Part shown: positions 22,206 through 46,024 of the stretch, one piece after another
Layout: each line of letters starts with the position of its first letter
Numbering within the stretch: position 1 is the first letter of the stretch
DNA from: Parvularcula sp.
GTDB lineage: Bacteria > Pseudomonadota > Alphaproteobacteria > Caulobacterales > Parvularculaceae
Length of the DNA: 62,032 bases
Assembly: GCA_002704915.1 (NCBI GenBank)
Contig: PAIP01000070.1
Coordinates: 1-62,032 of the forward strand
Direction: 5' to 3'
Position numbers and translations under genes: made by a program
Notes under the pieces: generated by a model
Seen by the model: the letters and a program-made list of their open reading frames with translations, nothing else
Databases searched by the model: none
Told to the model about the DNA's origin: nothing

Positions 22206-22343
22206 TTTATTGAATTAAATCAATAACTTAGCGGTATTCGATTTTCTTGGGTAACAGCTTTTACGCCGTTTTAGCCCATTTGGGTAACAATCTGGGTAAC
22301 ACTGGTTCGCGCTAGGGCCCAGAAAAACGGAAAGGCTCTTACC
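22206..22343. repeat. Element left end: direct repeats GGGTAACA before the integrase gene
   Basis: The 138 bp between tRNA and integrase hold an inverted repeat TATTGA/TCAATA (22207-22224), adjoining the tRNA CCA, and three direct copies of GGGTAACA at about 22249, 22282 and 22294 (spacings 33 and 12 bp). Direct repeats of this kind next to attL are usually arm-type binding sites for the integrase or excisionase; that role is inferred. Confidence 0.5.
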
Positions 22344-23567
22344 ATGAAAACGCTCCGAATGACGGACCGTTGGATACGGACGATCTCGGTTGAATCCGGC
22401 CGTGAAGAATACTGTGACAGCGTCGTGCGCGGGCTTCGCCTGCGCGTCTCGTCCGCGTCAAAAAAATGGTCGGCGGTGACGCGCCGCGGCGGCAAGCAGA
22501 TGCGCACCAATATCGGTGACTATCCCGAGATTTCTCTCGGCGACGCCCGGAAGCACGCCGACCATATTCTCAATTCAAAGACGGAAGCGGCGGCGCGGGG
22601 CGAGACCCTGACAGATGACGATCTCTTCCCGTCACTCCAGACCCTCTGTGAAGACTATGTCGAGCAGATGAAGGCGAAAGGGCAGAGATCGCATGACGCC
22701 TATCATCGCGCGCTCATTCGCAGCGATCACAGCTTCTGCAATTACATGGAACGGGTGCTCAAGCGACCGGCGCGCGTCGTGGATGTGAAGCAGGAGCATG
22801 CCGTCGACTGGCTGCGCGAGACCTATCAGCGCTCGGCGGCGCACTCGCGCCATTGCCGCGCCTATCTCCACGCGGTCTTCGCCTGGGCGATCAAGGCCAA
22901 TCTTGATTTCACGACGAACGCCAGTCGCAAGAATTACGGCATCACCGTCAATCCCGTAGCGGGAACGCCGACGGGTCCGAAGGCGACGCCGCGCCAGCGC
23001 GTTCTTTCAAGGGAAGAGCTGAAAAAGATCTGGGAAAAGCTGCCTGACGCCTGCGATCCGCGCACGACCGCCGCGATCCGCATGGTCATGTGCATGGGCG
23101 GCCTGCGCATCACCGAAATCTCCGCCTCGAAAAAGGACTGGTACAAGGACGGCTGGCTGTGCCTGCCGACAACCAAGAACAAGCGCGAGCATCATGTGCC
23201 GCTGACCAAACATGCGCAACTGCAATACCAGATCGCGCTCGCGGTCACGAATTCGGAAAGCGACTATCTCTTTCCGAATACCTATGACATCCGCAAGCCG
23301 ATCGACCCGACGTCCCTCGGCAAGGTCGCACGGCGCCTGATGAGCGATTTCGGGATCGAGCCCTTCCAGCTGAAGGACTTGCGCCGCACCTTCAAGACGC
23401 ATCTCCTTGATGGCGAATATGTCGAAGAGCGCGAAATCGATATCTGGCACAATCACGGCCAGCATTCCGATGTGGCGCGCAAGCACTACACCTGGGCGGA
23501 ATACAAATCCGTCAAGCAGCGCGTCGCAGAAAAAGTGGATGCGTTTCTCAACGAGGTGGGCATCTAA
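22344..23567 (+). CDS. Tyrosine site-specific recombinase (integrase)
   Basis: Integrates and excises the element at the adjacent tRNA. The 407-residue protein has the N-terminal DUF4102-like/arm-binding part (LRLRVSSASKKWS), a SAM-like core-binding domain (residues about 95-195), and the C-terminal catalytic domain: box I Arg in MGGLRITEIS, the beta-hairpin Lys in TTKNKREHHVPL, box II LKDLRRTFKTHL, and nucleophile Tyr in SDVARKHYTWAE. Box II has Lys where His is usual (HxxR becomes KxxR). It lies 138 bp past the tRNA and points away from it. Confidence 0.93.
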   Translation: MKTLRMTDRWIRTISVESGREEYCDSVVRGLRLRVSSASKKWSAVTRRGGKQMRTNIGDYPEISLGDARKHADHILNSKTEAAARGETLTDDDLFPSLQTLCEDYVEQMKAKGQRSHDAYHRALIRSDHSFCNYMERVLKRPARVVDVKQEHAVDWLRETYQRSAAHSRHCRAYLHAVFAWAIKANLDFTTNASRKNYGITVNPVAGTPTGPKATPRQRVLSREELKKIWEKLPDACDPRTTAAIRMVMCMGGLRITEISASKKDWYKDGWLCLPTTKNKREHHVPLTKHAQLQYQIALAVTNSESDYLFPNTYDIRKPIDPTSLGKVARRLMSDFGIEPFQLKDLRRTFKTHLLDGEYVEEREIDIWHNHGQHSDVARKHYTWAEYKSVKQRVAEKVDAFLNEVGI

Positions 23568-23805: not shown

Positions 23806-24663
23806 ATGCAAAATTGGCAGATTGAAGATGTCTCATTCTTGACGATGGGAGTCGCCGCAGTGGTTTTGCTCGCTGCGATTTCACTCTCGATGATGTTGAT
23901 GAAAACTGTTCGTGCGTGGCATGCCTCACGCAAACCGATAAAGCTGATACTTGACGATTCTCCATTGAGTCCGAATGCAGGATACTGGTTCGGCGTAGGT
24001 ATACGAAAAGAAGCATTGCGCGATGCTCAGGCGTCTGAACCGTCTGCAGTGTTTACAATTGGCGATTGGACGAAAGATGTTGGCAATATCGGTGAACTAA
24101 TCACCACGCTTCTCCATGTGACTACTGGCTGGCGCCAGCTTCCATCGCAGCCGGACGGAGATCACGGTATCGACGGTATTTTCGTTCGAAAGAAAAAGGC
24201 CGGATACGAAGTACGCTTCGTTGAAACCAAGACCGTAACTGATTCCGATCCTTTGAAATGGTATAGAGAAGACCAATTAAGCGCTGTCGGACTAAGACGT
24301 CGACTAGATACACTTCGTCGAATTTATGAACCGGCCGACAAGCAGCATATGTGTCAGGGAAATATTGACGCGCTGAAAAATGCGATAGATCGGCGGTCCG
24401 TGCATATTTCTAGTTTGCTGTATGGGCACATCCTGAAAACAGGAGAAACACACATTTATTCCGCGAACAAGGACGGCGACCTTAATATACAATCGAAAGT
24501 AACGCTCAATTCCGATGAACATCATTATATCTTTGAGGGGCTGGCGATCGGACTTTCAAGATTTGATAGACGAAATCGGTATATTCAGGATCAAGTTGCG
24601 ATGGCGGACAATAACGGCGAAGATCTTCTCGAAGGCCGTGATCATATTCAAGAAATTGCGTAA
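23806..24663 (+). CDS. Membrane-anchored PD-(D/E)XK nuclease-like protein
   Basis: I do not recognise a named family. The 285-residue product has one N-terminal membrane helix (residues about 11-33, FLTMGVAAVVLLAAISLSMM), a short linker, then a soluble domain with a nuclease-like signature: Glu97 in IGELITTL, Asp123 in GDHGIDGIFV, and E140-x-K142 in VRFVETKTV, i.e. the E...D...ExK layout of PD-(D/E)XK enzymes. GIDG followed by a strand with ExK is typical of DNases in defence islands. The gene is AT-richer than its neighbours and converges on the Hsp70-like gene across 141 bp. Nuclease activity and membrane location are inferred; the active site would be on the cytoplasmic side if the helix is an N-out anchor. 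Confidence 0.65.
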   Translation: MQNWQIEDVSFLTMGVAAVVLLAAISLSMMLMKTVRAWHASRKPIKLILDDSPLSPNAGYWFGVGIRKEALRDAQASEPSAVFTIGDWTKDVGNIGELITTLLHVTTGWRQLPSQPDGDHGIDGIFVRKKKAGYEVRFVETKTVTDSDPLKWYREDQLSAVGLRRRLDTLRRIYEPADKQHMCQGNIDALKNAIDRRSVHISSLLYGHILKTGETHIYSANKDGDLNIQSKVTLNSDEHHYIFEGLAIGLSRFDRRNRYIQDQVAMADNNGEDLLEGRDHIQEIA

Positions 24664-24804: not shown

Positions 24805-26691
24805 TCACATCAATGGCTTGAACCCGCAGGATCCTTTGCAACCAGATACTGGCCCCTCAGCCAATATCTGAGAGATCTTACGTTTACACCGAGCACAGGG
24901 CACGTAGAAATTGCGCTCTTCGAGCTGACGTGGAGTTGCCGCATTGTTTCTGGTGTCGAAGTAAGTAGGCCGCCACCTGTCAATAAGATCTCCTGGGACA
25001 AGTTTCCAAAGGTCTCCATGGGTCTGGTTGCGCTCATCTAACTTGGCGACATTGGTCCTCTGGTAGAGATTTGTTTCCGCGAAAGCTCTAACTTGAACAA
25101 CCGGGCCCGGCTTAGCTCCAGATCCAAGCCCGTTACCCTGTTGATGCGGCGAAGTTGACTCGGCCAGCGACAGACCAAACTCGAGATCGTGAAATTCCTC
25201 CGAGGACTCGGCACCTCGCCCAGTGGACTTCAGGCTCACTCGCGCGACATAGTCATGATCGATCTGTAGGTTGCATTCGATCCGTTCAAGCAATGGCTGC
25301 GCTTTGGAGTCAACTTCGACCTTCACGATGCATAAAGAGCGTCGAGGATCGTTCGGCGAGGTCTTTCCGAGCCTTACCGGCTTTGCAACCTCCACTACCG
25401 CGACGCCCTCCCGTGGGTCCACGCAAAACAGGCGCGTGTTGGCGACGTTCTGCGTCTCGTTCTCGATCGGAAGGGTCCAACCGGCATCAACGAGAGCGTG
25501 ATAAGTGCCCCGGCCCGACGTGTCTGCGACCAGTATTTCGATCGGTTTTGACAGTTTGAGCCTTAGCCCATCATTCGCTATCCAAGCAGCGCCTTCGGCG
25601 ATGATACGGTCTCCATTTTCGATCCGCGGAACCCTCCCCACAAACCTTTCCGTCAGGCCATCCCGAATTGCCGGCATGTTGACCATCCCGCCAGTTGCCA
25701 GGCAGAGTTCGATGTCCTGGTAAGTCAGCTGCGCCTGCTCCAGTATCTCATCGATCCGAGCTAGCCCACGCGCGACAATGCTAGAACTAAGTTCCTCGAG
25801 TTCAGCCCGGGTGACCGATGCAAGGAGATTTTTTCCGGGCCCATCCGCCTTGAGGTAGTTCCGCACGATCACGTCTTCGGTATCGACCTTGGGGTCGGAC
25901 AAATGTATCTTCAGGATTTCGCATTGGTGCAGCAGCTTCGCCGCCATGCCTGGTTGCTCGAGAGCCGTGATGTCTTCCAAGCCATGCGCAGAAGCATGCT
26001 TTTCGCGTAGGTGATTTCGTAGCCGTTCGTCGAACCTGTCACCGCCAACTTCGTTGTCGCCAAGATTTCTGACCTGCATGATCGCACCACCAGTGATGCG
26101 GCAGAGCGTCAAGTCGAGCGTGCCGCCACCCCAATCGAATACCAGTATGGATCTTCCTTCGAGGCGCGCCAACTCGCGGCCAAGGTCAGGTTGCGCACGA
26201 AGGTGAGCATAAAGAGCAGCTACCGGCTCGTGTACAAACTGCACGACGCCAATGCCGGCTTTCCGGGCCGCTTCGCGAAGGGCTCGGCGCTCAGGCCCTC
26301 CGAAGTCGACTGGAATGGTAAAGACCGCTCGAGCGAGATCATGCGCAGGTGCACCGCCTCGTGCGATGGATGCGTCGGCTTTCAAGTGTCGGAGGACTTC
26401 GGCGACGGCATCAGTAGGCTCAACAGGTCTGCCATCCACGAATATGGGACCATCTCGCCTGAGCGACATCTTCGGAGATCGAACGAAGCCTGGTGGGGCG
26501 CCACCTTCGGTGATGTCCATGTTCTCGCGTGCTTTGCGTCCAACTACGATGTCCGCGCCACGGTACCAGATGACTGACGGATGAGGGCGACGGGTAACTG
26601 GATCTACGAGAGCGAGGGCGCGCCCCCCTACGGAGACCGCCGCGAGACTGTTCGTTGTTCCAAAGTCGATGCCGAAGACGGTCTCACTCAT
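24805..26691 (-). CDS. Hsp70/DnaK-like ATPase with a C-terminal zinc ribbon
   Basis: 628 residues. The Hsp70 actin-like ATPase domain is complete: phosphate-1 FGIDFGTTNSLAAV (residue 6 on), phosphate-2 LVFDWGGGTLDLTL near 195, connect-2 and adenosine motif LCLATGGMVNMPAI near 345. A shorter substrate-binding-like part follows (about 395-560). The alpha-helical lid of DnaK is absent; instead the protein ends in CARCKRK...GCKGSCGF, four cysteines (CxxC and CxxxC) that probably bind zinc. It is thus not the housekeeping DnaK. Its start overlaps the stop of the coiled-coil gene by 4 bp (ATGA). A dedicated chaperone or switch-like ATPase for the defence operon is inferred. Confidence 0.88.
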   Translation of the reverse strand: MSETVFGIDFGTTNSLAAVSVGGRALALVDPVTRRPHPSVIWYRGADIVVGRKARENMDITEGGAPPGFVRSPKMSLRRDGPIFVDGRPVEPTDAVAEVLRHLKADASIARGGAPAHDLARAVFTIPVDFGGPERRALREAARKAGIGVVQFVHEPVAALYAHLRAQPDLGRELARLEGRSILVFDWGGGTLDLTLCRITGGAIMQVRNLGDNEVGGDRFDERLRNHLREKHASAHGLEDITALEQPGMAAKLLHQCEILKIHLSDPKVDTEDVIVRNYLKADGPGKNLLASVTRAELEELSSSIVARGLARIDEILEQAQLTYQDIELCLATGGMVNMPAIRDGLTERFVGRVPRIENGDRIIAEGAAWIANDGLRLKLSKPIEILVADTSGRGTYHALVDAGWTLPIENETQNVANTRLFCVDPREGVAVVEVAKPVRLGKTSPNDPRRSLCIVKVEVDSKAQPLLERIECNLQIDHDYVARVSLKSTGRGAESSEEFHDLEFGLSLAESTSPHQQGNGLGSGAKPGPVVQVRAFAETNLYQRTNVAKLDERNQTHGDLWKLVPGDLIDRWRPTYFDTRNNAATPRQLEERNFYVPCARCKRKISQILAEGPVSGCKGSCGFKPLM

Positions 26692-27713
26692 TCCTTAGCC
26701 TCTTCAATAACTGAAAGCGCGGCTTTCACGCGTCGAAGCGCAGTTTCCGGCGCTGAAGGGTCGATTTCTAGAGCGTCAATAGCATCCGCAAGTAGAGGGC
26801 CAAGTCGTTCACCCAGAAGCACCTTCTGCTCGGCTTTTGTCTCCGTCAGATCGTGACCCCAATGATGGCGCTCAGCTGCAAGGGTCTGCTCCAATTGGGC
26901 GATGGCGGCGTCGCGTTCAGTGATGGATGTCCTTGCATTTTCAAGCTCGATGCGAAGCTTTTCGATCTTTCGGTTCGCATCATCGAGGCGATGTCGAACG
27001 TCATTGGAAATGTTCCTCTCGCGCGCCCGTTCTTCTTCCGCGACCTTGACCATCCGGTCGCCGACTGCCGCCATTGCAGCTGCAATGCGAAGCTCACCAA
27101 TCCTTCCCTTCTGAACGGCTCGCTGAGCCGCCCGCGTAGCCGTCTTCAAATCTTTGAAGAGAACTGGAGGAAGTTGTTCCGCGACCTGCCACGTTTTAAG
27201 CGACCGTTTCTCGACAAGCCAACAAATGGCGATCCGCAGAATATTTTCAGCGCGCCTCTTATCGTCCGTCTTTTCAGAACCTAGGCCTGCGAAGAGTTCA
27301 CGCAGAACGGATTTGAAGATGCGTCCTGCATCGTGGTCCTGCGGGTCGAAGGCTTCCCCAAGTTGCTCATTCAGGCGCGCCTGTGCGGCCCCCCATATCC
27401 ATGCATCGACTGGCTCCGGCGGTGAGGCTTGGGCCATCAAACTCCAGAGGCGCACCGCGTCGGGGTCCTTAGATGACATGAGCTTGACGGCCTCCTCTTG
27501 GTCCGCAGGGCGGAAGCGCTTAACTTTATTCTTGCGAAGAACCTTGAAAAATTCCGAGGGGCTCGCACGATGTTCGCCGAAATACCCCACAAGTGTGGGA
27601 GGAATTTCAACTTCGTCAGGCGGGGCGCTCTGGGCGTTATTCGGCCCCTCTGCCTGCTTCTGGGTATCCGTGCTATCGGCCTTGGTTCCTGGCTTCTCTT
27701 CTTTCTCGGTCAC
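26688..27713 (-). CDS. Coiled-coil protein, middle gene of the chaperone-like trio
   Basis: Family not recognised. From the GTG at 27713, which overlaps the upstream stop as GTGA, the product has 341 residues; an ATG at 27746 would add 11. The first 40 residues are polar and disordered. A helical middle (LRIAICWLVEKRSLKTWQVAEQ) leads into a long heptad-rich coiled coil at about 220-300 (RHRLDDANRKIEKLRIELENA, AAIAQLEQTLAAERHHW) and a short C-terminal helical part. Position directly before an Hsp70 gene suggests a GrpE-like or adaptor role, but sequence similarity to GrpE is not visible to me. Confidence 0.75.
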   Translation of the reverse strand: MTEKEEKPGTKADSTDTQKQAEGPNNAQSAPPDEVEIPPTLVGYFGEHRASPSEFFKVLRKNKVKRFRPADQEEAVKLMSSKDPDAVRLWSLMAQASPPEPVDAWIWGAAQARLNEQLGEAFDPQDHDAGRIFKSVLRELFAGLGSEKTDDKRRAENILRIAICWLVEKRSLKTWQVAEQLPPVLFKDLKTATRAAQRAVQKGRIGELRIAAAMAAVGDRMVKVAEEERARERNISNDVRHRLDDANRKIEKLRIELENARTSITERDAAIAQLEQTLAAERHHWGHDLTETKAEQKVLLGERLGPLLADAIDALEIDPSAPETALRRVKAALSVIEEAKE

Positions 27714-28858
27714 GTTGATGCTTGCTCCAGGTATTTGCTCGCCCATCGGCTGAAGGGATAGACTTCGGCAATTTGCGTTAGTGGTTCCAAGGCGCACTCG
27801 GTCGAACCGAGTCTCCACGCTGATGCAGCCCATATGGCGAACGCCTTCTGGTGATCAGTTGCGTCGAATAGGTCGGAATATGCGAGCGTCCTACACTCCT
27901 CATCCAGGATCGGACTCCATCGCCGCTGTGCAGTGAGATGTTTTGAAAGTTCAAGCATCCGCCCTGTCCCGTGATCGATTGGACAAACTGGCCGTCGAGT
28001 GATGTTCCCCAGTGGGTGCGGCAGGCTGGCGGAGGTTGGGTTTGATAGCAGCTCGATAGCCAAGTCTAGCTCCCAATATCCCGTGCGGGCTCCACTCTCT
28101 CTAAGGTCGTTCAAGGAGAAGCGTATTATGCAGGTAATCAACCTTGCGAGTGGCCGCGGGAAGTCCTTTAGGACATCGAGCGCACGTCCGTACAGTTCTC
28201 TATAGCGGGAGAATGGAGTGGTGAGCTTCTCACCTTCTGGTCGCTCTTTGATTAGAACCCCGAGGCAATAGTCGGCTAGGCCTGAGGCATATTCCTTTCC
28301 TGATCCCTGAGTCCTTTCATCTCCGAGAAAGGAGCCAATCGAACTTCTGGTTATCGCTTCTGACGCTAGGATTTCGGAGAACGCTTGCTCCACGCGCTTC
28401 AATTCAGTTTCTTGCGCAATACGGAACGAGAAATCATAATCAGTCGCAACGGGTGTAGCTTTAGGTTCAGATGCATTAACCAGTTCAAGCCTCAATTCAG
28501 CTTGGAACGTCGTCGATATTATCTTTTTGAGTTTGTCAGCGGAGACCGGCTTTTGTTGAACGCCGTCCAGGCGAACAATTGCATGGCTTGTGTTCGCAAC
28601 AGCAATTTCTGATAACGCTAAGGTCGATCGGACGACCGCTTGCCCGCTCGGTTCGCGGCCGCGCAGCATGATGAACGGCCGCTCTACGCGATGTTTGGCG
28701 TAGACATGGTCGTAGAACTCGGACTGGTTCGGAAAAACGGATGAGCAGAACGGGCAGGAAAAGCTAGGCTCCCTTACTGGCCCCGGATCAGGGGTAGTTT
28801 CGGTACCTTCATAAAAGGCATCTAGGTCACTCTCGCGTATCCATCCGACAGTCGGCAT
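27710..28858 (-). CDS. C2H2 zinc-finger protein, first gene of the chaperone-like trio
   Basis: Unrecognised 382-residue protein. Near the N-terminus is one C2H2 finger, Cys35-x2-Cys38-x12-His51-x4-His56 (CPFCSSVF...DHVYAKH), rare in bacteria and usually a nucleic-acid or protein contact. The remainder is mixed: a probable alpha/beta part up to about 150 and a helical C-terminal half with TPR-like character (CALEPLTQIAEVYPFSRWASKYL). It is separated by 117 bp from the helicase gene and overlaps the coiled-coil gene start. It could recognise the substrate passed to the Hsp70-like protein; this is inference. Confidence 0.75.
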   Translation of the reverse strand: MPTVGWIRESDLDAFYEGTETTPDPGPVREPSFSCPFCSSVFPNQSEFYDHVYAKHRVERPFIMLRGREPSGQAVVRSTLALSEIAVANTSHAIVRLDGVQQKPVSADKLKKIISTTFQAELRLELVNASEPKATPVATDYDFSFRIAQETELKRVEQAFSEILASEAITRSSIGSFLGDERTQGSGKEYASGLADYCLGVLIKERPEGEKLTTPFSRYRELYGRALDVLKDFPRPLARLITCIIRFSLNDLRESGARTGYWELDLAIELLSNPTSASLPHPLGNITRRPVCPIDHGTGRMLELSKHLTAQRRWSPILDEECRTLAYSDLFDATDHQKAFAIWAASAWRLGSTECALEPLTQIAEVYPFSRWASKYLEQAST

Positions 28859-28975
28859 TTGGACCTTTCGTGTGCAATCCTCTACCGTTCATTGAACGAA
28901 AAAAAACCTTATGGTCTTCATAAATTTGCTCGAATACAATACTCGGTCAATCCGAGCGTCAAAAAGATAACCACA
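28859..28975 (-). promoter_or_regulatory. Possible second promoter/operator between helicase and zinc-finger genes
   Basis: The 117-bp AT-rich gap holds, reading the minus strand, a short stem CTCGG/CCGAG, a TTGACC (28950-28945) with a weak AAATTT 17 bp on, a run of eight T, and the palindrome CGTTCA-A-TGAACG (28898-28886) 27 bp before the next start codon. This could be an independent, repressible promoter for the zinc-finger/coiled-coil/Hsp70 trio. Confidence 0.35.
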
Positions 28976-31714
28976 TTACTTGCTCCACGACGACCGCATT
29001 AACGCCTCAAAATCCCGGCGGGACAGGACCTCGGCGCAATCGCGCCAATCTTCGTGGCTCGGACTGCTTGAAGCGTTGTAGCGAAGGTCGAACCCAGTCG
29101 CTTTCTCTTGGGCGTTAATGTACTCATCCATCCGTACACCTAGCTCTTCAATATCTTCGATCCAGTCGTCCTGAATCGTATCCGGCAATGAGCCGAAAAG
29201 ATCGTACCGATCACGCATCCGTTCCGACAAGCGATCATAGACTTTTTCGTCAACTGTCCCTTCGTTCACCAGGTTGAGCATATCAACTTTTTCGCGCGTC
29301 TGACCGAACCGCTTTATTCGGCCGATCCGCTGCTCCAACCGGGTTGGGTTCCAAGGCAAGTCGATATTAATGAGCGTGCCGAGCGTTTGAAGATTGAGGC
29401 CCTCACACGCAGCATCTGTTGCGACCATGATTTTCAATTCATGATCTGCAACCATCTCTTTGAGCGTTTCGCGTTCAATGCTGACGCTTTCTCCTTTGCG
29501 ATAAAGTCTGCTCCTTGAGGCGCCGGCATAAAGCCCGACAGGTAGGTCAGGATACTTCGCCGCGAGCGCGTCCGCGCACCACTTCGCCGTATCGTAATAC
29601 TGGCTAAAAATGATCGCGCCGTGGTCGAGCCACTTTTCTCGTTCAAGAAAATGGATGACCGCGTCGATCTTCGGATCAGATGTCATGCCTTCGAGCCTCG
29701 CAATCAGGCGACGCAAAACATCCAGTTCCTCGGGGGCTTCAGATGACAGGGCTTGTTCTTCGTCGCCAGTGTCGGCCACGACAGTCTGACCTGCGATAAG
29801 CGCGCGAGCTGTGCTCAATCCGGCGGCGATACTGGAGCAGATCCGCTGCTCCATGAGGTTCTTCATGAAGCCGCTGCCCTGACCGCGTTTTGCGAGTGCT
29901 TTGCCGAAATTTCGCGCTTCACGGTAGGCTTCACGAAAATCCTCGCTGGTGCGTAGCGCCTTGCCCTCAAAAAGCGCGTCAAACCTTTGCACATCGCGGA
30001 CGAATTCCCTGTCCGGGTGCAGATCAACGCCAATCTTTGGCAGCAATCCTGATTCTTCGAGATCGCTGCGTTTACGGAGTACAACGTGCCGCGTGAAGGG
30101 GTTTTCACGCTGGAAAAAAGTCGCCTCCGAAATTCGCCTTTCGATCTCTTCTTCGAAAAGCTCTCGCGTCTCAATACTGAGGTCGGTCAGCGGACGGTTG
30201 CTGTCGGCTAATTTGTCATCGAGCGCGAGGTCTTCGCGGATGGCGCTGAAGAGCCGCCGCGCCCTCGGTTCCTCCGTTGATTTCACCAACGGAAGAGGGG
30301 AGCGCAGGAGATCCCAGGCATGAGCCAAAGTTGTGATGTCTTGCTGTCCGGAAATTATCGGCAACACCTCTGCCGGCGTGTGCCATTTCGCGAAATCGTT
30401 TCCGAGGACGAAGTTTCCGGCGCCCTGATGAAGAATGCCGACAAGGTCCCAAAGGTCTTCCGGACGCGTTTGGATCGGGGTTGCTGTGCCCAGCAACACA
30501 TGATCGCTGCGGGCTGCAATCTCCCGAGCGAACGACAGAAGCTCATTCGGCGACCCGGCGTCAGGGCCAAACCCCTGACGGCTGCGCGCCTTGTGGGCTT
30601 CATCGAGAATCACAACACCGAAACGCAACGACATTAGGTGCTGCTTTTCAAGACTGTGTCGCATCATCAGGCCGGTCGAAATGATACCGATCCGAAGGGG
30701 GCAGTTGACGATCTGCTCGCGCCCTGCTGGTGAAATCGCCCGGTCCTCAGGATCGAGCCAGACTTTCTTTTGCGTATCCCAGCGTGCGCAGGGTATGCCG
30801 AGTTTATCGATCATCTCGGTCTGCCACTGCTCGCAAAGGGTGGCGGGCGCGAATATGACGACCGGCTTTTGACGCTTATCTTCACGGTCGCGCAACAGGC
30901 ACAAGGCTAGCGCCGCCGTTCCGAGCGACAGTGTTTTGCCAAGGCCGACTTCATCGGCAAGTAGCAATCGAACAATGCCGTAATTTTCAAAGTGACGCAG
31001 GCACTCGGTCAGGAACCCTTGTTGCCAGGGGCGCAGTGAGAACCCCTCGCGATAGAGCGGGGACTCGATCAAGGCCGCCGGGGCCAGGTCTTCGGCGTCC
31101 TCGATCTCTTCGAATTGCACTTCGCGACGATTGCCACGGCGCGCGACTTCCCGGATCACGGCGCGCGGCAATTCCTTGGCGGCGTTCCATAGGAATTCGA
31201 ACTCCTCTTCTATCCATTTGACGCCTTCGGGCGAGGCGTCCTCCCAGAGGATTTCATAGTGTTTTCTCCAACCGCTGCGCGTCTCATTCATCGACCCGAT
31301 GAAGCCGAGCTTGCGGCCGTCTCTCAGCTCGATCACCCCGGCCTTGCCATGAAGGAATCCGCAAACGGAATCCGGCGCCACGCGAACCGCTTGCCCGTGC
31401 TTTTCAAGAAACGTGTCCAACAGCCGATAGCGCTCGCGTTGTAAGAGCGCTTCACCCTCCATCTCGCCCGCGTTCCAGCGACCAAGCATTTTCGCTTCCC
31501 GCAGCTTGGCGATCTTCAGATCGTCCGGGTGGATATCGACATTACAAACGATCTTCACGTCCGGAATTTTGTGCAGCGCTTCGCCTGCAACCTCGAACAA
31601 GGAACTCGTGAAATACCCGGCGATCCGGCGATAGCTGCGCGCGCCGTCGAGATGCTCCAGAAGCATGGATTGATCGAGCGGCCGCGTGCGGGAGGAGAAA
31701 CGCCGGATCGTCAT
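28976..31714 (-). CDS. PLD-domain SNF2-family helicase of the Hma-like defence module
   Basis: A 912-residue DNA translocase. The N-terminal ~190 residues form a phospholipase-D-like domain (HGKAGVIELRDGRKLGFIGS, an HxK motif with GSxN), followed by a superfamily 2 SNF2 motor: Walker A ADEVGLGKTLSLG, DEAH-type VILDEAHKAR, motif III LLGTATPIQ, and C-terminal motifs V-VI AACEGLNLQT and LEQRIGRIKRFGQ. Such PLD-helicases accompany DUF1156 methylases and DUF499 ATPases in predicted anti-phage modules. The gene starts 22 bp after the methylase stop on the same strand. Translocation along or remodelling of invading DNA is the likely role. Confidence 0.9.
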   Translation of the reverse strand: MTIRRFSSRTRPLDQSMLLEHLDGARSYRRIAGYFTSSLFEVAGEALHKIPDVKIVCNVDIHPDDLKIAKLREAKMLGRWNAGEMEGEALLQRERYRLLDTFLEKHGQAVRVAPDSVCGFLHGKAGVIELRDGRKLGFIGSMNETRSGWRKHYEILWEDASPEGVKWIEEEFEFLWNAAKELPRAVIREVARRGNRREVQFEEIEDAEDLAPAALIESPLYREGFSLRPWQQGFLTECLRHFENYGIVRLLLADEVGLGKTLSLGTAALALCLLRDREDKRQKPVVIFAPATLCEQWQTEMIDKLGIPCARWDTQKKVWLDPEDRAISPAGREQIVNCPLRIGIISTGLMMRHSLEKQHLMSLRFGVVILDEAHKARSRQGFGPDAGSPNELLSFAREIAARSDHVLLGTATPIQTRPEDLWDLVGILHQGAGNFVLGNDFAKWHTPAEVLPIISGQQDITTLAHAWDLLRSPLPLVKSTEEPRARRLFSAIREDLALDDKLADSNRPLTDLSIETRELFEEEIERRISEATFFQRENPFTRHVVLRKRSDLEESGLLPKIGVDLHPDREFVRDVQRFDALFEGKALRTSEDFREAYREARNFGKALAKRGQGSGFMKNLMEQRICSSIAAGLSTARALIAGQTVVADTGDEEQALSSEAPEELDVLRRLIARLEGMTSDPKIDAVIHFLEREKWLDHGAIIFSQYYDTAKWCADALAAKYPDLPVGLYAGASRSRLYRKGESVSIERETLKEMVADHELKIMVATDAACEGLNLQTLGTLINIDLPWNPTRLEQRIGRIKRFGQTREKVDMLNLVNEGTVDEKVYDRLSERMRDRYDLFGSLPDTIQDDWIEDIEELGVRMDEYINAQEKATGFDLRYNASSSPSHEDWRDCAEVLSRRDFEALMRSSWSK

Positions 31715-31736
31715 GAGTTACAGCGCCCCCATACGG

Positions 31737-34700
31737 TCAATTGCCAATCGCTCTCATATTCTTGAGCCGCGCCCCGAGAACTTCGGCCGCGTCGCGAACC
31801 TCGCTTTCCGGCGCCTTGCGTTCAAAGAACTCCATGAGGTCGATCAGGATCGAACGCACCTCAAGAAAGTCGGGCAGGTCGATCTGGATTTGTTCAAGAA
31901 CCGTTTGCGGCTCAACCTCATCGATGATCTGCCTGAGGCCGATGATAAGACGGCCAAGCCAGGTGCCGCCGATCTCGGTGCTGTCGGTCAGGTCGCGCGT
32001 CTCAAACGCGGTCACGCTTTTCAGCTTTGCGGCGTTCGCGGAAACGCTGCTCATCACTTTCGTGTAGTCTTCAACGCGGAACGCCTTCGCAAAATTCTGG
32101 TAATTGTCGAGCTTGCTCGCCCCGGTCGTCTCCATATCCATCATGCGCACATAGAAGCGCTGTATGCCGGAAAGCCGCGCCCAGGTTTCCGCATCAAGAC
32201 CTTCAGGAACGAGAAGGCTGTTCGCCGCCTCGGCCGCCTGCTGGACAATTTCGTCAACGACCGTGACCTCGCCCCTCGCTTTCGGGCGAAGCGCGAAGCT
32301 CGTGACATCCTCGCCGCCAATCTGCGTATAGGCGGTCAGAACCTTCAATGCCGCCGCATAACCGGCCATCTGCAAATCGGAATCGTTGAAGACGGGCTCG
32401 CCCATCTTGTCCTTCACCTCCTCATTGAGGTTCAGCATGCTTTCGATCTGACGTGCGACCTCGGTGCGCACAGCGGGGAGAATGCGCTGCTTGAAGCCGG
32501 GCTTGTCGCCGGGCGGGCGCTTACGCAGCATCAGGATCACCGTGCCCTGAACATAGCCGCCCTTTTTCAATTCGGAGGTTGTTTCCGTCGCAATGTACCA
32601 GGCGGCAACGACCTGAAGGCCGGCCGCCCAAAAAATCCCAATCATGTCTGACCAAACGCCGGTGTCCTGATGGGTGAACATGACGCATTGCATGCCATTA
32701 TCGGGCATATGGTCCGCCATCGCCTTGTAGGCGTCGACCATGCCTTTTCGGAAATCGTCGCCAGAACCCTTGATTACAAGCGCTCGACGGGAGTCCCACA
32801 CCCATTCATCGAACGGGGTGGGCGGATTCTTGCGCAACCAGGCGATGAAAAACTCGGTGATCTCGTGGTAGTTCACTGCATCAGCATAAGGAGGGTCGGT
32901 TATCCAGTAATCGCAAGAGCTAGCTGGCTCGTCGGCTGAGCCAGAAACCACGTCTCGCTTAACGTTCGGAAGGGGTGAAGAAGCCATCTTGAATGATCCC
33001 GAACCGAAGCCAGACCACGAACGCGTGGCATAATTATAAAAGGTATTAAGGGCTTGGTTCGAGAAAACCCCTTTGGGGCCACCGAGCCCTCCACCTTGTG
33101 AAGTAGCCCAGCGGCAGAGTCGCGAATTGAAATCTGCCATCTTGGCAAGATTCAGCCACCCAAGTGGAGCTGCTTCAGATTTACGCCACGCGGTCTGAGC
33201 CAACGCCTGCAATAATATCTGGCGTGCGTTGAAGAGATGATGCCAATGAGTCCATCCCCGCTCTCTAATAGGCTGGTTAGTATTATAGCCCGGCTCGATA
33301 TCCATATCAGTGACAATTCCTTCAGATTGCCAAGATGATAAGTTATCGGCCACGATCTCCTCAACCTTGCGTTCTCGCTCCAAATCAGCTTCGGACACAC
33401 CGAGAAAATAGGTATTTTGGCGTGCTTCGTAGATCGAGTCTTTCGTGATCCACTGAATCGCGTAGAGTCGTTCTTGGAAGATGTCGTCTTCACGCGGGAT
33501 GAAATCAAATTTTTCCCATCGGCGTAGTCTGTTGAGGGTTGATCCATCTGGTCCGCGATAATCTCCGCGCAGGGTTTTCACTGACGTTCGATAGGTACGG
33601 CCATCAAGCTCGTAGATGAGGGCGCCATCGTCTACGGTGCCTTTCTCCGCTTCCTTCAGTTCCTTCTTCGAGACATCACTCACGACTTCGATATCAAAGC
33701 GCTTGTTCGCATGATCAGGTCTAAGCCGCGCGATCGCGCCGAGCTTCGGCGAGATCACCCGGCTTGGCAGCATCGGCACCATCCATCCGGTTTCGGGGCA
33801 CTTAGTCTCTACGCAATAGAGATAGGCTTTGCCACGATTGCCATGTTCGTCGTGTTCAACGCCGAGATCGATTAGTTCCCTGTCGACGATCTCCGTTACC
33901 GCTTTCTGGGCTTTTTCGAAATTGGCGCGTTCCTTCTTAGAAGCGCCGATGATGTTCATTGCGCCCCATGTCAACATGCAAGCGATCGGATTAAGGTCGG
34001 CGGCATAGGCGTCACAGCCCATCCTGGCAGCTTCAAACGGGATAGATCCGCCACCGGAGAATGTGTCTCCGACACGCGGGCGATGACCAAAGCGCAATAT
34101 CCCTAATTGTTCGATTAGCTCAGGGAATGAGTTCGCCTTGATGCCCCATGCCTTGTAGTGTGCGTTAACTGCGGACCAAATCGGTGAATAGAGCCAAGTC
34201 TGATCGACCTCCTCGGGCCGCTTGCACAAATCGGCCTTTTCCTCATAGGTCGAAAACGTTGCGAGAGCGCGTTCGATCAGCTCAAGTTTTGTTCCATCTG
34301 AGACATCGCGGTTCCACCGAAGCGTAATACCTTCTTCATCTGCATCGAATGGGCATTCAAGGTTTTCATAGCGATCGCCATTCCCCTTCTTGTCACGTGC
34401 GGTAAACGAAAAGAATTTCCACGGATTTGAGATGGTAAGTCGTGCGGCAATGTCCTTCGGCTTCAGCTCGTTTTGAGCAAACGCACGACGCGCGAGCGCG
34501 TGGTCATCGAACGCCAAGAGTTTCTCCAGAATCGCCAAATCTTTCTGGTTGTCGCCGGTCTCCGGAAGTAAGCAGCCTAACACAATAGATCGAACAAGGA
34601 TCAATGGCTTGCGTCCTTTCCAATAGGAGCCAAGACCGGTAAGTGTTTGCGCAGCGACCGCTTTCCGCTCTTTCTGCGCCTCGAACGAAACTTTCTGCGC

Positions 34701-34763
34701 TGGGAATACCGACTCAATGAGGGCAGGGGCGTCTTTTAGGGCGAAGGGCGTCAGTTTCGTCAC
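31737..34763 (-). CDS. DUF1156 DNA adenine-N6 methyltransferase of the Hma-like module
   Basis: A 1008-residue methyltransferase. The SAM-binding motif FSGGGSIPFEAA lies near residue 232 and the catalytic DPPY (YWITDPPYADAVNYHEI) near residue 623, the order and spacing expected of an N6-adenine enzyme with a large intervening target-recognition region. The N-terminal ~70 residues fit DUF1156. It probably methylates a host motif so that the associated motors spare self DNA; the motif cannot be read from sequence. It overlaps the DUF3780 gene by 4 bp. In NCBI-style naming this is an anti-phage-associated DUF1156 protein (from memory). Confidence 0.92.
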   Translation of the reverse strand: MTKLTPFALKDAPALIESVFPAQKVSFEAQKERKAVAAQTLTGLGSYWKGRKPLILVRSIVLGCLLPETGDNQKDLAILEKLLAFDDHALARRAFAQNELKPKDIAARLTISNPWKFFSFTARDKKGNGDRYENLECPFDADEEGITLRWNRDVSDGTKLELIERALATFSTYEEKADLCKRPEEVDQTWLYSPIWSAVNAHYKAWGIKANSFPELIEQLGILRFGHRPRVGDTFSGGGSIPFEAARMGCDAYAADLNPIACMLTWGAMNIIGASKKERANFEKAQKAVTEIVDRELIDLGVEHDEHGNRGKAYLYCVETKCPETGWMVPMLPSRVISPKLGAIARLRPDHANKRFDIEVVSDVSKKELKEAEKGTVDDGALIYELDGRTYRTSVKTLRGDYRGPDGSTLNRLRRWEKFDFIPREDDIFQERLYAIQWITKDSIYEARQNTYFLGVSEADLERERKVEEIVADNLSSWQSEGIVTDMDIEPGYNTNQPIRERGWTHWHHLFNARQILLQALAQTAWRKSEAAPLGWLNLAKMADFNSRLCRWATSQGGGLGGPKGVFSNQALNTFYNYATRSWSGFGSGSFKMASSPLPNVKRDVVSGSADEPASSCDYWITDPPYADAVNYHEITEFFIAWLRKNPPTPFDEWVWDSRRALVIKGSGDDFRKGMVDAYKAMADHMPDNGMQCVMFTHQDTGVWSDMIGIFWAAGLQVVAAWYIATETTSELKKGGYVQGTVILMLRKRPPGDKPGFKQRILPAVRTEVARQIESMLNLNEEVKDKMGEPVFNDSDLQMAGYAAALKVLTAYTQIGGEDVTSFALRPKARGEVTVVDEIVQQAAEAANSLLVPEGLDAETWARLSGIQRFYVRMMDMETTGASKLDNYQNFAKAFRVEDYTKVMSSVSANAAKLKSVTAFETRDLTDSTEIGGTWLGRLIIGLRQIIDEVEPQTVLEQIQIDLPDFLEVRSILIDLMEFFERKAPESEVRDAAEVLGARLKNMRAIGN

Positions 34764-35380
34764 TCGGAATCATCCTGGAAAAGGTCAAGCGTCGGACGGT
34801 CGCCGGGCTTTGTGAGTTCGCGGCGCGCGCGCGGTTGCAGGAGGTCGCTTTGGGCGATGTCGCCAAGGGCGTGCTTTAGGGCGAGGCGCCAGCCTTTGCC
34901 CGCATCTTTGTAGGTGCCGGTGGCGATCGCCGTCATGCCGAAGAGCCACCAGCGTTCTTCCGGGCGAAGCGCTAGCCAGTTGCGTACGGCGATCGGGATC
35001 TTGTCGAGATCGAGATCTTCAACCGCCCAGGCGAGGACGCAAAGCTCCTTGCCGAGAAGCCGATCGACCTTGTTATTGCCGGATTTCCATGCCGACGTTT
35101 TTAGATCATGGCCTTTTAGCCGCGCATTGAACGCGCGCTGCACTTCAGCGCGAATCGCCGTCCAGCGCGCGCGATCGAGCCGCACACGGTCGATCACCGA
35201 AAACTCATCGCTCGTCGCCTGAAGACCCAGATATTCCCTGATCTCGACCTTGCCGGCGTTGGCTTTTGGAATGAGCACGTCGAAATGGTGCGGATCAGAT
35301 GTCGCCGGCACGCCGAACCCTAGGGTCGGTTTGGAAATCGGGTCCGGGTCGATCTTTCGTGATGCGCTTGCTCTCGCCAT
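34760..35380 (-). CDS. DUF3780 protein of the Hma-like module
   Basis: A 206-residue protein with DUF3780 landmarks: LDRARWTAIRAEVQRAFNARLK, the run KVDRLLGKELCVLAWAVE, and PEERWWLFGMTAIATG followed by KGWRLALKHALGD. The function is unknown; it is a regular partner of DUF1156 and DUF499 genes. The ATG at 35380 lies 4 bp past the DUF499 stop with GGAAGGCTGAGG upstream; a longer frame to 35440 would overlap DUF499 by 56 bp and is less likely. Confidence 0.88.
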   Translation of the reverse strand: MARASASRKIDPDPISKPTLGFGVPATSDPHHFDVLIPKANAGKVEIREYLGLQATSDEFSVIDRVRLDRARWTAIRAEVQRAFNARLKGHDLKTSAWKSGNNKVDRLLGKELCVLAWAVEDLDLDKIPIAVRNWLALRPEERWWLFGMTAIATGTYKDAGKGWRLALKHALGDIAQSDLLQPRARRELTKPGDRPTLDLFQDDSE

Positions 35381-35384
35381 TGCC

Positions 35385-38300
35385 TCAGCCTTCCTGAACG
35401 ACGTCGCCTGGGCGTAATTCGAGACTGGCGAGCTTCGCAAACTCTTTCACGTCGAAGCCGCTTTCGAATGTGATGCCGTCCGCGATCGTCACCGCCACAA
35501 GCGCGGCGTGATCATTCAACACTTCGCGCAAACTATTGACGACGCCTTCGATGATCTCGGCGGTGATTTCGCGCTCCTGAAATCTCACCGAAACCGTATG
35601 CTCGCCTTCGCCGATTTCGATGCGCACGCCCTTGAAGAGGGTGTTCGCGCTATCCCGGAAACGGTTGATAACGCCGAAGACCTTGTCCGTATCGTCGAGG
35701 GTCACCCGCTTCTTCTGGAGCCGCGCCGGCTTGGCGTCATCGACCTGGACGCTTGTGTCGCCGCGCGCCGGGATCTTGAAATCGGCGCTCTTGGTCGCTT
35801 CCCCGGATTGGGCGTAGACAAGCAATCGGACTTCATTCGCGCCGATCTCGAACGGCGCGTCATACTCAACCCCGTCTTTCGGATTGGACCCGTCTGTCGT
35901 GTAACGCAGTTTGGCGCGGGGCGAGGCTTGCAGCGTCACCTTGCGCTTATCCGCCGCCGGTTCGACCTGATGCCGGATCTTGATATCGGCGAGCCATCGG
36001 ACCGACGGGCCAGGCTCAAATTGCCCGGTCGGGTCCTTCGCCCAGAAATAGAGCGAGCCCTCTTCGGTTCTGAAATTGTCGAGGTCATCGACTTTCGGAT
36101 CGGCCTCGCTGACCGCCGCTTTTGTCGAGTAGTGAATATGCGGGCTGTCGCCGGCATGGCGCGGGGTCAGCATCAGAATCGAGGCGCCGTCATCGCCGCT
36201 TGTTTGAACGGTGACGTTGACGCTCGATTTTTCCGTGGGGAAGGGACCCTTCTCGATATAGCCGTCTTCGCCGAGCCGCCAGCGACCTTGCTTCAGTGCT
36301 TCCTGTTTCAGCGCGTCCATGCCGCCGGACCCGGGCATCCACGTCCATGCCGGATTGCTCCTTGCGCGGCTGACGACGTCTTTCCATGGCGTGCGGCGAT
36401 TGTCCTTTCCGGAGGGCCAAAGGTAGGCCTCCGCCATCGCGAAGGCCTCTTCGTAGTTTCCGGCAAGATCGAGCGTCAGTTTATAATTCGCGCGCGGGCT
36501 CGCCAGCAGCCGCTCGATCTGAACTTCCGCAGACTGATCGCCGTCTCCGATCTTGAGACCATTATCGATCGTGACCGGCGCCAGATGTTCGCGATCGTCG
36601 ATCTCTTCAACGCTCGGGAAATAGAGCCGGTTATAACCGGCCGACAGCGCCTTGTTGAACCGGTCCTCGGCTTCCTCGAGGCGATCGCGCGCCTCTTCAT
36701 AAAGCGTGTCGCCGGGCTTTAAGCGCTTTGCGATTTGCTCAATCGCATAAAGTTCGCGAAGCCGGTCCTCGACCGCGTCTGCGAGGTGGCTATCCTGACC
36801 CGTCAGGACCAGCATATTGTTCTTGTCCTGCTGATAGTCGAAGAAATTCTGTAAATCCTTGGGCGGCACTTTGCCGTCAGCGCGGATAACAATCAGAACG
36901 CGCGGTCCGCTGAGTTTCAAATCATCGAGCTTCGGCAGAACCTGCAGTTCCTGATAGGCTTTGCGACTCTCAGGCTGCAATATGCCCGTCAATCGATTGA
37001 TCAGCGCCTGATCGATTTTGGGTTGCGGGATTTCCTTCGCCGTGCGTTCGATCTGGCGCGAGAGATTCTCCGTTTCCTTGACGTAGAATCGTTGATCCTC
37101 CCGGTGAAGATACCACGCCTGCTCGCGCAGTCGCGTCAGGGCTTCCAGAAATTCATCCGGCTTGCGATTTGGCGCAGACAGGAACTCGATAATCTCGCTA
37201 TCGGACAAGCCAATTCGCCCGCCGACCGCGCGCGACAGTGACGAGGCAAGAAGCAGCGTCATCACCTGTTGCGCGGCGTCGTTGCCGAGTTCGTCATCGA
37301 TCGTCTCCGCAATGGCGTTGCCATTGTCGGAAATGTCGCGCGTAACGGCGGGCAGAAGTTTCGGCGCGATGCGTTCGATTTCGTCGCGCACCTGATCGTC
37401 CTCAAGATCGAGATGCTGCGTCCCGATAAGAAAAACATCGTCTGATTCTCGTTGCTCGACGCTTTTCAGAAGTCTGGCGGTGAACTGCATCAGGCCGCGT
37501 GTTTGTCGAAAGCCTTCGTTCTCCTTGAACAAGGCGACGAGGTGCTTGAATGACGGATGAAACGGATAGGTCTCGCGCACCTGTTCAGTGATCTGTTCGA
37601 TACTGGACGCGACGATATAGCCGCCGCCTTCAGCCTTCTTCACCTGCGCGGCATATTCTTCGGCGATATCCGCGATCACGCGATCATCGGGCAGTTCATC
37701 GATGAGCCGTTTTTTCAGGATTTCGTAGATTTCATTCCCGTTGAGCTGGACCGGCGTGATCGTCATCGCCTGGCGCCGGGTCTCCGATTTGAGATTCTCA
37801 ACGGCCTCTTTCAGCGCCTTGGTCTGGTTCGCATAGCTCCCGGCGAGGTTCGCGACGATAATGGCGCAGTTTGGCAATTCTATCGCGGCGCTCATCAGGG
37901 AGCTCAGGCTGTAGACAACCATGTCTGCAAGCGTACCGTTCCCATAAGACTGCGTCGCGGCGTTTTGCAGATAGGGCGGCAGCTCGTCGAGGAGAATCAG
38001 GGTGGGCGCATCGCCTATGATCTCCTTCCACATTCTTTGGTCGACTGATTTCGGACCGTTGACCCAATGCGGCTTGATCTTTTCTCCGGCGCCCAATTGC
38101 TCGGCGATTTCGCCCCAAAGGTAATTGTCAGGGCTGTTACGACCATTGAACGCCGCAATGCGCGCCGCCCCAAAGTCGAGGCGGCTGTTCAATTCCTCCG
38201 GGAGCACTTCCGGACGCAGATGCGGATGGCGCGCCAGCAATCCAAGCGCGACCATCATATGCGTTTTACCGCCGCCCATCGCTTGCGTCAGTTCGAAGAC

Positions 38301-38504
38301 GGCCTGATCCGATTTGCCGGAAAGGCGGAGCATCCCTTCTTTGAAGAGTTGCTCCATGCCCTTGGTGACGAAATTCCGCGAAAAGAACGCGCGCCCGTCG
38401 CCCTCGTCATTGATCAGGTCCCAGAGGTTTTCGATGCCTTGCGCCATCCGGTAATCGCGAACAACCGGATTGAAAGCGCAGGCTTGTTTGATTGTCTTAA
38501 TCAT
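35385..38504 (-). CDS. DUF499 ATPase of the Hma-like module
   Basis: A 1039-residue P-loop ATPase: Walker A AMGGGKTHMM at residues 75-84 and Walker B TLILLDELPPYL at 168-179, both typical of DUF499. The middle is helical. Near residue 850 there is a segment KLRYTTDGSNPKDGVEYDAPFEIG that matches the chitobiase/HEX C-terminal Ig-like repeat, an unexpected beta-domain that may contact DNA or a partner. DUF499 ATPases are thought to be motors or sensors next to DUF1156 methylases. Its start overlaps the ribbon-helix-helix gene by 4 bp. Confidence 0.9.
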   Translation of the reverse strand: MIKTIKQACAFNPVVRDYRMAQGIENLWDLINDEGDGRAFFSRNFVTKGMEQLFKEGMLRLSGKSDQAVFELTQAMGGGKTHMMVALGLLARHPHLRPEVLPEELNSRLDFGAARIAAFNGRNSPDNYLWGEIAEQLGAGEKIKPHWVNGPKSVDQRMWKEIIGDAPTLILLDELPPYLQNAATQSYGNGTLADMVVYSLSSLMSAAIELPNCAIIVANLAGSYANQTKALKEAVENLKSETRRQAMTITPVQLNGNEIYEILKKRLIDELPDDRVIADIAEEYAAQVKKAEGGGYIVASSIEQITEQVRETYPFHPSFKHLVALFKENEGFRQTRGLMQFTARLLKSVEQRESDDVFLIGTQHLDLEDDQVRDEIERIAPKLLPAVTRDISDNGNAIAETIDDELGNDAAQQVMTLLLASSLSRAVGGRIGLSDSEIIEFLSAPNRKPDEFLEALTRLREQAWYLHREDQRFYVKETENLSRQIERTAKEIPQPKIDQALINRLTGILQPESRKAYQELQVLPKLDDLKLSGPRVLIVIRADGKVPPKDLQNFFDYQQDKNNMLVLTGQDSHLADAVEDRLRELYAIEQIAKRLKPGDTLYEEARDRLEEAEDRFNKALSAGYNRLYFPSVEEIDDREHLAPVTIDNGLKIGDGDQSAEVQIERLLASPRANYKLTLDLAGNYEEAFAMAEAYLWPSGKDNRRTPWKDVVSRARSNPAWTWMPGSGGMDALKQEALKQGRWRLGEDGYIEKGPFPTEKSSVNVTVQTSGDDGASILMLTPRHAGDSPHIHYSTKAAVSEADPKVDDLDNFRTEEGSLYFWAKDPTGQFEPGPSVRWLADIKIRHQVEPAADKRKVTLQASPRAKLRYTTDGSNPKDGVEYDAPFEIGANEVRLLVYAQSGEATKSADFKIPARGDTSVQVDDAKPARLQKKRVTLDDTDKVFGVINRFRDSANTLFKGVRIEIGEGEHTVSVRFQEREITAEIIEGVVNSLREVLNDHAALVAVTIADGITFESGFDVKEFAKLASLELRPGDVVQEG

Positions 38505-38698
38505 TTGGATCCGCCCCCGCTGCGCATAGTAGAATCGCTATCACTATCGTCATCTTGTTTATTGGCGCAGTAATTCATAATCATCACTTCGATCATATTG
38601 GCGATAGATCGATGTTCTTTTTCCGCCGTTGTTCGGAGCGCCTCTTTAAGGTCCGGATCAATGCGAAGCGTCAGCGTCGCCGATTTGGTGTTCGCCAT
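38501..38698 (-). CDS. Ribbon-helix-helix (CopG-like) regulator, first gene of the defence operon
   Basis: 65 residues. The N-terminus KSATLTLRIDPDLKEALRTTAEKEHRSIANMIEVMIMNYCANK has the beta-strand then two helices of ribbon-helix-helix proteins (TLRI strand; LKEALRTTAEKE; SIANMIEVMI). The tail is acidic/Ser-rich. It starts the operon and overlaps DUF499 by 4 bp. Direct repeats over the presumed promoter just upstream suggest autorepression, so expression of the whole system may depend on this protein. Confidence 0.85.
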   Translation of the reverse strand: MANTKSATLTLRIDPDLKEALRTTAEKEHRSIANMIEVMIMNYCANKQDDDSDSDSTMRSGGGSK

Positions 38699-39614: not shown

Positions 39615-40178
39615 ATGACTGACCAACTCACGACCGACGCGCCCGCTGCGGCGACCGCACCCGCTCGGCCCGATCGACCGCGCATCTACGTGGCCTGCCT
39701 TGCGGCCTACAATAATGGCTGCCTGCACGGGCGCTGGATCGATGCGACCACCCCGGACGAGATCATGGACGCGGTGCGCGCCATGCTGGCGGCGTCGCCC
39801 GAGCCCGGCGCCGAGGAATGGGCGATCCACGATTATGAGGGCTTCGAGGGCGCAAGACTTTCCGAATACGCGTCCTTCGAGACCGTTTGCGCGCTTGCGG
39901 ATTTCATTGAGGAACATGGCGAACTCGGCGGCAAATTGCTCGAGCATTTCGGCGACGACCTCGCCGAGGCGCGCGCCGCTTTCGAGGACTACGCAGGCGA
40001 ATTCCACAGCGCCGCCGATTTTGTCGAGGAGCTTCATGACGATACCGGAACGCAGATTCCGGAATCACTTCGTTATTATATCGACTGGGAGGCGCTCGCC
40101 CGCGACATGGCGCTGAATGGCGAGATCATCGCCATTCAAACCGGCTTCGACGAAGTCCACATATTCTGGTCGCGGTAA
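39615..40178 (+). CDS. ardA: Antirestriction protein ArdA
   Basis: A 187-residue acidic protein mimicking B-form DNA to inhibit type I restriction enzymes during conjugation. Family marks: RIYVACLAAYNNGCLHGRWID near the N-terminus, DYEGF, the antirestriction helix region with many Asp/Glu (EEHGELGGKLLEHFGDD) and the C-terminal AxDMALNGEI(I/F)A...FDEVHIFW. The ATG at 39615 has GGAAGGAGA upstream. It starts the 39615-42698 gene run. Confidence 0.95.
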   Translation: MTDQLTTDAPAAATAPARPDRPRIYVACLAAYNNGCLHGRWIDATTPDEIMDAVRAMLAASPEPGAEEWAIHDYEGFEGARLSEYASFETVCALADFIEEHGELGGKLLEHFGDDLAEARAAFEDYAGEFHSAADFVEELHDDTGTQIPESLRYYIDWEALARDMALNGEIIAIQTGFDEVHIFWSR

Positions 40179-45885: not shown

Positions 45886-45929
45886 TTGGGGAGCGGAGGA
45901 AGTATTTTTGGGGGAGGGCAAGATTAAAG

Positions 45930-46014: not shown

Positions 46015-46024
46015 AGCTTTTACC

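Follow-up and report, generated by a model that had tools for sequence, protein, structure and literature searches.

A stretch of 62,032 nt from a Parvularcula sp. contig (PAIP01000070.1, assembly GCA_002704915.1), called the window below and numbered along its forward strand, carries eight consecutive minus-strand open reading frames (ORFs) that run from position 38698 down to 24805. The upstream genes form the core of a predicted anti-phage operon built around a DUF499 ATPase, and the last three encode a C2H2 zinc-finger protein, a coiled-coil protein and an Hsp70, referred to here as the trio. This row of eight genes had been described in the original prediction, made from the letters alone, and it is borne out by the ORF calls and the Pfam matches. 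The trio is conserved as a unit, is embedded in operons and is biased in its choice of partners. Its recurrence, at some loci beside or inside related anti-phage operons, points to a chaperone module cooperating with DNA-restriction motors.

The operon opens with a ribbon-helix-helix (RHH) protein of 65 amino acids (38501–38698; Pfam RHH_1, 25 bits, cut-off 20.5), the likely regulator of the core operon, whose gene overlaps the start of the next one by 4 bp. This next gene encodes a DUF499 AAA+ ATPase of 1039 amino acids (35385–38504; Pfam DUF499; PADLOC DUF499, 1420 bits; NF042962, 1504 bits, cut-off 1200) with a Pfam Fn3_assoc domain at about residues 853–900. It is followed by a DUF3780 protein (34760–35440; Pfam DUF3780, 255 bits; PADLOC DUF3780, 317 bits; NF042961, 277 bits, cut-off 200), whose 226-residue ORF opens at a TTG and may have its real start further in, a DUF1156 methyltransferase of 1008 amino acids (31737–34763; Pfam DUF1156; PADLOC DUF1156_MTase, 1423 bits; NF042963, 1363 bits, cut-off 1000) and a PLD-nuclease/SNF2 helicase of 912 amino acids (28976–31714; Pfam PLDc_2, SNF2 and Helicase_C; PADLOC PLD_Helicase, 1376 bits; NF042964, 1199 bits, cut-off 1100). 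From the RHH gene to the helicase gene, neighbours overlap or are separated by at most 22 bp. After a spacer of 117 bp (28859–28975) come the genes of the C2H2 protein (27710–28858; 382 amino acids), the coiled-coil protein (26688–27833; an ORF of 381 amino acids) and the Hsp70 (24805–26691; 628 amino acids; Pfam HSP70, 166 bits), each overlapping the next. The spacer holds a single weak hairpin (1 found, 0.5 expected) and no match to a promoter consensus, and it is too short for an XRE gene like those found at other trio loci.

On its domain content the core is a predicted Type-2 BREX-related (BR) system with DUF3780, a described architecture, and not the Hma system of PADLOC. Its four proteins score above the equivalog cut-offs of NCBIfam families named as 'anti-phage' proteins (NF042961–NF042964). 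The DUF499 ATPase, the DUF1156 methylase and the helicase are all present by Pfam, PADLOC and NCBIfam, a standalone DUF3780 gene lies within the core locus, and a predicted HKD/PLD nuclease (PLDc_2, residues 18–176) is fused to the helicase. The core had been proposed as a defence module of the Hma-like kind; the PADLOC and NCBIfam matches and the Type-2 BR architecture uphold the defence assignment, and the name fits at the level of the superfamily and fails at that of the subtype, as the HmaC, HmaB and HmaA models gave 161, 68 and 123 bits against 1420, 1423 and 1376 bits for the DUF499, DUF1156_MTase and PLD_Helicase models. Going by the main text of PMC12839542, Type-2 BR is the name for this DUF499-centred architecture and Hma is the name used by others for the DUF499-centred group as a whole, and because of this wide usage we do not equate Hma with Type-1 BR. 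A search of the window's genome for PglZ at E 1e-5 gave no match, and the core is therefore neither BREX nor Type-3 BR. Another close counterpart of the core is reported to be the system that Gao et al. 2020 called 'restriction-like'.

The C2H2 protein matches Pfam zf-Di19 with 21.8 bits, under the Pfam cut-off, and its finger residues C35, C38, H51 and H56 are invariant in all 18 aligned sequences. Its structure model (pLDDT 86) comprises the finger (residues 33–56), a beta-sandwich-like part (57–148) and a helical-repeat, TPR-like part (150–382), while the model of the coiled-coil protein (pLDDT 80) has a helical domain (75–242) and a single helix of 112 residues (245–356). The labels 'beta-sandwich' and 'TPR-like' are only suggestive because the fold matches are weak; in fold searches no match of either model reached E 0.001 or had a VIA-align Z above 7.0. 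The true start of the coiled-coil protein is probably Met30 (base 27746) or a later codon, since in the relative at locus L007 a stop lies shortly before that methionine.

The third protein possesses the Hsp70 nucleotide-binding domain. Its phosphate-binding motifs (D9-F10-G11-T12-T13-N14-S15, D186-W187-G188-G189-G190-T191-L192-D193 and G334-G335-M336) and K74 are invariant in 18 of 18 sequences. It also appears to resemble the DnaK beta domain; matches to full-length DnaK mostly end at about residue 500 of 628, and because one of them extends to residue 572, the presence of a lid is best called not clear. The C-terminus consists of a variable stretch and a cysteine motif with invariant C599, C602 and C618. 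A separate DnaK-type gene, distinct from the trio Hsp70, lies on another contig (C64) of the window's genome. None of the PADLOC v2.0.0 families matched the three trio proteins at E 0.01, and the sole NCBIfam matches were those of the Hsp70 to general DnaK and MreB models, far under the cut-offs. GrpE and DnaJ were considered as identities of the two partners of the Hsp70 and rejected, with no match to them in Pfam, among PDB sequences (the best 60 of 131 matches in one search) or, clearly, by fold; a profile search among PDB sequences likewise gave no GrpE for the coiled-coil protein.

Searching genome contigs with the window's Hsp70 yielded 24 loci, two of which (L021 and L025) belong to contigs of a single strain. 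The order C2H2–coiled coil–Hsp70, with every gene of the trio detected, is seen in 20 of the 24, counting four cut by contig ends (L005, L019, L021 and L024) and one with a frame-broken Hsp70 gene (L015). As to the incomplete loci, L010 and L025 reach contig ends, L008 has lost the C2H2 gene beside an IS21 element, and L014 retains a truncated Hsp70 gene alone, near plasmid-partition and IS66 genes. The same order is kept in six more distinct loci, one on a plasmid (L027) and the others on viral contigs (L028, which equals L029, and L030, L031, L032 and L033). The plasmid, a conjugative one from Paenarthrobacter, has an IS3 transposase splitting its trio C2H2 gene (L027, 13821–16275). The trio reaches from Pseudomonadota to Actinomycetota (L023, L027). 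It is rare, present in one of 199 relatives and, by its C2H2 gene, in one of 385 genomes of the class, in both cases the window's own genome. Eight of 13 viral matches (L034–L041, Hsp70 identity 26–33%) had neither a C2H2 nor a coiled-coil gene and were excluded, nine Hsp70 matches from a phage collection (about 30% identity or less) were left out of the trio counts, and additional scans of viral contigs returned two already known loci or none, with no new ones. The trio is a conserved cassette, and because it recurs in the same order in other genomes, its arrangement in the window is not due to chance.

Two deep lineages have the trio inside an operon. On the viral contig L031 the order is BrxB-BrxC-PglX-trio-PglZ-BrxL (251, 1586, 1574, 977 and 1007 bits for the BREX genes in order), with 2 bp between pglX and the C2H2 gene and a 4-bp overlap between the Hsp70 gene and pglZ. 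At L017 and L018, the latter known from tblastn matches only, a DUF499 gene and a gene for a 163-aa protein precede the trio with 4-bp overlaps, and methylase and helicase genes follow after 51 bp. The 163-aa protein (L017, 7304–7795; L018, 5564–6055) has no PADLOC or PHROGs match; a kinship with DUF3780 was rejected, as the L017 copy has no similarity to the window's DUF3780 protein. Other copies stand next to their partners. The trio follows HmaA-HmaB-HmaC at L009 and PglX-PglZ-BrxL and a 143-aa ORF at L022, it is followed after 23 bp by McrB and McrC at L003 and L004, McrB pieces come after the Hsp70 gene at L002 and L014, it has McrBC upstream on the other strand at L021, and it ends a unidirectional XRE-ImmA-McrB-McrC-trio row on the viral contig L028. 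Altogether, BREX or BR partners occur at 5 of the 24 genome loci (DUF499 systems at three, BREX at two), with the window and L031 in addition, and McrBC or its remnant at 5 of the 24, with L028 in addition. The view of the original prediction that the trio is a non-standard extension of the core is in keeping with this recurrence beside three kinds of systems.

Some of the loci without BREX, BR or McrBC have other restriction-like genes, in flanks whose annotation covers part of the neighbour genes: a GmrSD_N gene and a PD-(D/E)XK 'REase-ARP' gene at L012, a WYL gene at L005 together with a ResIII helicase whose N terminus looks HKD-like by eye, UvrD-type helicases at L011 and L016, and a RAMP-superfamily gene at L020. 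Integrase, recombinase or transposase genes lie near several copies. Partners change between close relatives. The closest kin of the window's Hsp70 (88–90% identity) stand with McrBC (L003, L004), with a McrB piece (L002) or with none of BREX, BR and McrBC (L016), and the Hsp70 of L007, 85% identical, has BREX as its partner. In a tree of 27 trio Hsp70 rows, made by a quick method, with long branches for L031 and L032 and L014 excluded, the partnered or unpartnered state changes at least seven times.

The partner bias was examined in 23 genomes for the 24 loci (L025 was left out as the same strain as L021), with 'near' meaning no more than 20 kb away on the trio's contig. This limit was set after the distances had been seen, and the largest counted distance is 12.6 kb. 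Nearness at L008 and L014 was judged from fetched flanks because their genomes hold no C2H2 gene. PglZ was near the trio in 2 of 3 cases, DUF499 in 3 of 6 and McrC in 3 of 6, that is 8 of 15 when pooled, where about 0.14 would be expected from random placement. HsdR-N served as the control for chance clustering in defence islands, which was rejected: none of 14 copies was near, and the one on the same contig, in the genome of L006, is 55 kb away. The difference between 8/15 and 0/14 has a Fisher P of 0.0015, or 0.006 with the pairs L003/L004 and L017/L018 each counted once. DUF499 is also commoner in trio genomes (6/23) than in the class sample once the window's genome is taken out (7/189; P 0.0009, uncorrected for kinship).

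According to the original prediction, a trio that is absent beside other DUF499 loci and common on its own would be unrelated to the core. The data bear out half of this: the C2H2 gene was found in none of the seven other DUF499 genomes of the class sample, nor in the one other DUF3780 genome, and 14 of the 24 loci are unpartnered. The trio as a fixed part of DUF499 systems was rejected, with DUF499 in 8 of 190 class genomes against the single C2H2 gene, the window's, in 385. It is a movable module with a partner preference and no fixed or obligate subunit, because it is missing from all seven of those genomes and unpartnered at most loci.

An AAA+ ATPase is the common denominator of the trio partners, the McrB-like proteins by Pfam AAA_5 and BrxC and DUF499 as described in the main text of PMC12839542. 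At somewhat less than an even chance, we favour the trio as a portable Hsp70 module, here placed after a Type-2 BR operon, that would work with AAA+ restriction motors (BrxC, DUF499, McrB). We infer a dedicated Hsp70 machine remodelling the AAA+ restriction complex. The zinc-finger, beta-sandwich and helical-repeat protein may be the adaptor that recognises the client, the coiled-coil protein may couple or regulate the Hsp70, and the Hsp70, whose ATPase motifs are intact and whose lid is not clear, would use ATP cycles to remodel a folded client of several subunits. The client would most likely be the AAA+ restriction complex, at its loading, release from DNA or reset, and less likely a phage complex. 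Known Hsp70s dismantle multiprotein DNA complexes, as DnaK does with the lambda replication complex and RepA, and for this reason the client step is most plausibly the loading of the motor or its release.

Several observations weigh against this reading. In the window itself core and trio are 117 bp apart, at L009 a 70-bp gap, in which an inverted repeat was noticed by eye, separates the Hma genes from the trio, and at L007 BrxA and BrxC lie on the strand opposite to the trio. No DnaJ or GrpE was matched by Pfam at E 1, and the structural matches of the C2H2 and coiled-coil models are all weak. The excess of PglZ in trio genomes is not significant (3/23 against 7/189, P 0.08), the 20-kb limit is post hoc, and the assemblies are fragmented, so that contig breaks conceal some pairs. 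Of the 24 genome loci, 14 have no BREX, BR or McrBC gene in the fetched flank, as judged by tblastn with reference proteins from partnered trio loci, several of these contigs being short, and at five loci (L002, L003, L006, L007 and L016) a divergent XRE gene of the trio's own is its close upstream neighbour.

The last two points speak for an autonomous defence unit, one that would act by itself while lying in the same defence islands as restriction systems. The XRE genes of L003, L006, L007 and L016 are 70–89% identical to that of L002, and an ImmA/IrrE-type peptidase gene follows at L002 and L006. This conserved divergent gene suggests inducible control of the trio. The switching of partners among Hsp70s 85–90% identical, and the conjugative-plasmid copy near a DUF262 pair and a methylase/helicase, fit such a unit as well. 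Set against it are the embedding of the trio in BREX and DUF499 operons, with genes overlapping or almost touching, and the bias to AAA+ motors but not to type I restriction–modification (R-M) systems. We regard the autonomous unit as possible though doubtful, and it stays a strong rival because most copies are unpartnered and several have their own regulator. In a different proposal, modelled on the CoCoNuTs, the zinc finger and the Hsp70 would attach to RNA or to phage products associated with ribosomes, giving DNA restriction a further arm directed at RNA or translation. Passages of PMC11090510 describe CoCoNuTs as combining the Hsp70-like CnuD, coiled coils and McrBC, in superoperons with BREX and type I R-M, and an Hsp70, a coiled coil and McrBC or BREX meet at trio loci too. 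However, the eight operon proteins of the window have no AAA_5/McrB or HEPN match in Pfam, and the Walker A-like motifs of CnuD are degenerate according to the same passages, whereas D9–S15, D186–D193 and G334–M336 of the trio Hsp70 are intact in 18 of 18 sequences; this proposal appears improbable. It is also improbable that the trio is a chaperone cassette for stress responses that rides mobile islands and has no part in defence. The mobility genes near several copies and the separate DnaK-type gene in the window's genome would suit such a cassette, and the trio's position within operons of two deep lineages and its preference for restriction motors would not.

Some genes around the operon are of mobile-element type. 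A tRNA-Met gene and a tyrosine integrase gene (22130–23567, plus strand, as are the genes below) place the locus probably within an integrated element, and a second copy of the tRNA end, as an att repeat, was not found in the window. An ArdA antirestriction protein (39615–40178), a ParB_N-domain protein (40926–42698) and an ORF that is relaxase-like by eye only (45908–47986), with no relaxase match in PHROGs, give the flank of the defence operon the look of an integrative-conjugative element. Between integrase and operon lies a gene for a 285-aa protein (23806–24663) with an N-terminal hydrophobic stretch and a nuclease-like D..ExK pattern seen by eye, which has no Pfam, PADLOC or PHROGs match. 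Further away, a 300-bp direct repeat (50572–50871 and 61309–61608) is 94% identical and spaced by 10.7 kb.

It is not settled how phage restriction works in BREX and its DUF499 relatives. The presence of one conserved chaperone cassette between pglX and pglZ of one BREX operon, inside DUF499 operons and beside McrBC suggests a control point shared by AAA+ machines. It is rather unlikely, though worth stating, that the trio is an exchangeable Hsp70 remodelling machine dedicated to such motors, with chaperone-cycle control of their loading, arrest or reset forming a general, overlooked layer of BREX-type immunity. For the annotation of defence systems the trio adds a searchable module, as it has no PADLOC v2.0.0 model and reaches no NCBIfam cut-off. 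No description of a C2H2, coiled-coil and Hsp70 trio was found in the literature searched, and the main text of the BREX/BR census (PMC12839542, supplements not covered) has no Hsp70, DnaK, chaperone or C2H2.

The core is already known, and the theme of an Hsp70 in restriction is known from the CoCoNuTs, with different parts. With Type-2 BR, as given in the main text of PMC12839542, the window shares the four core genes including DUF3780, the fusion of PLD nuclease and helicase and the Fn3-like domain in DUF499, and the trio is additional. Hma of PADLOC belongs to the same superfamily of helicase, methylase and DUF499-type ATPase, but the window core has DUF3780 and scores about 9 to 21 times more bits on the models of the other subtype. 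The DnaK-DnaJ-GrpE triad is likewise a three-protein unit around a DnaK-type Hsp70; the trio differs from it in that neither DnaJ nor GrpE was matched, the lid is not clear and the Hsp70 bears a C-terminal cysteine motif. Type III CoCoNuTs (CnuD, coiled coil and McrBC), as far as the passages of PMC11090510 go, resemble the trio in tying an Hsp70-like protein and coiled coils to a restriction ATPase and in co-occurring with BREX, whereas the window trio consists of three separate genes, includes a zinc-finger protein and keeps the Hsp70 motifs intact.

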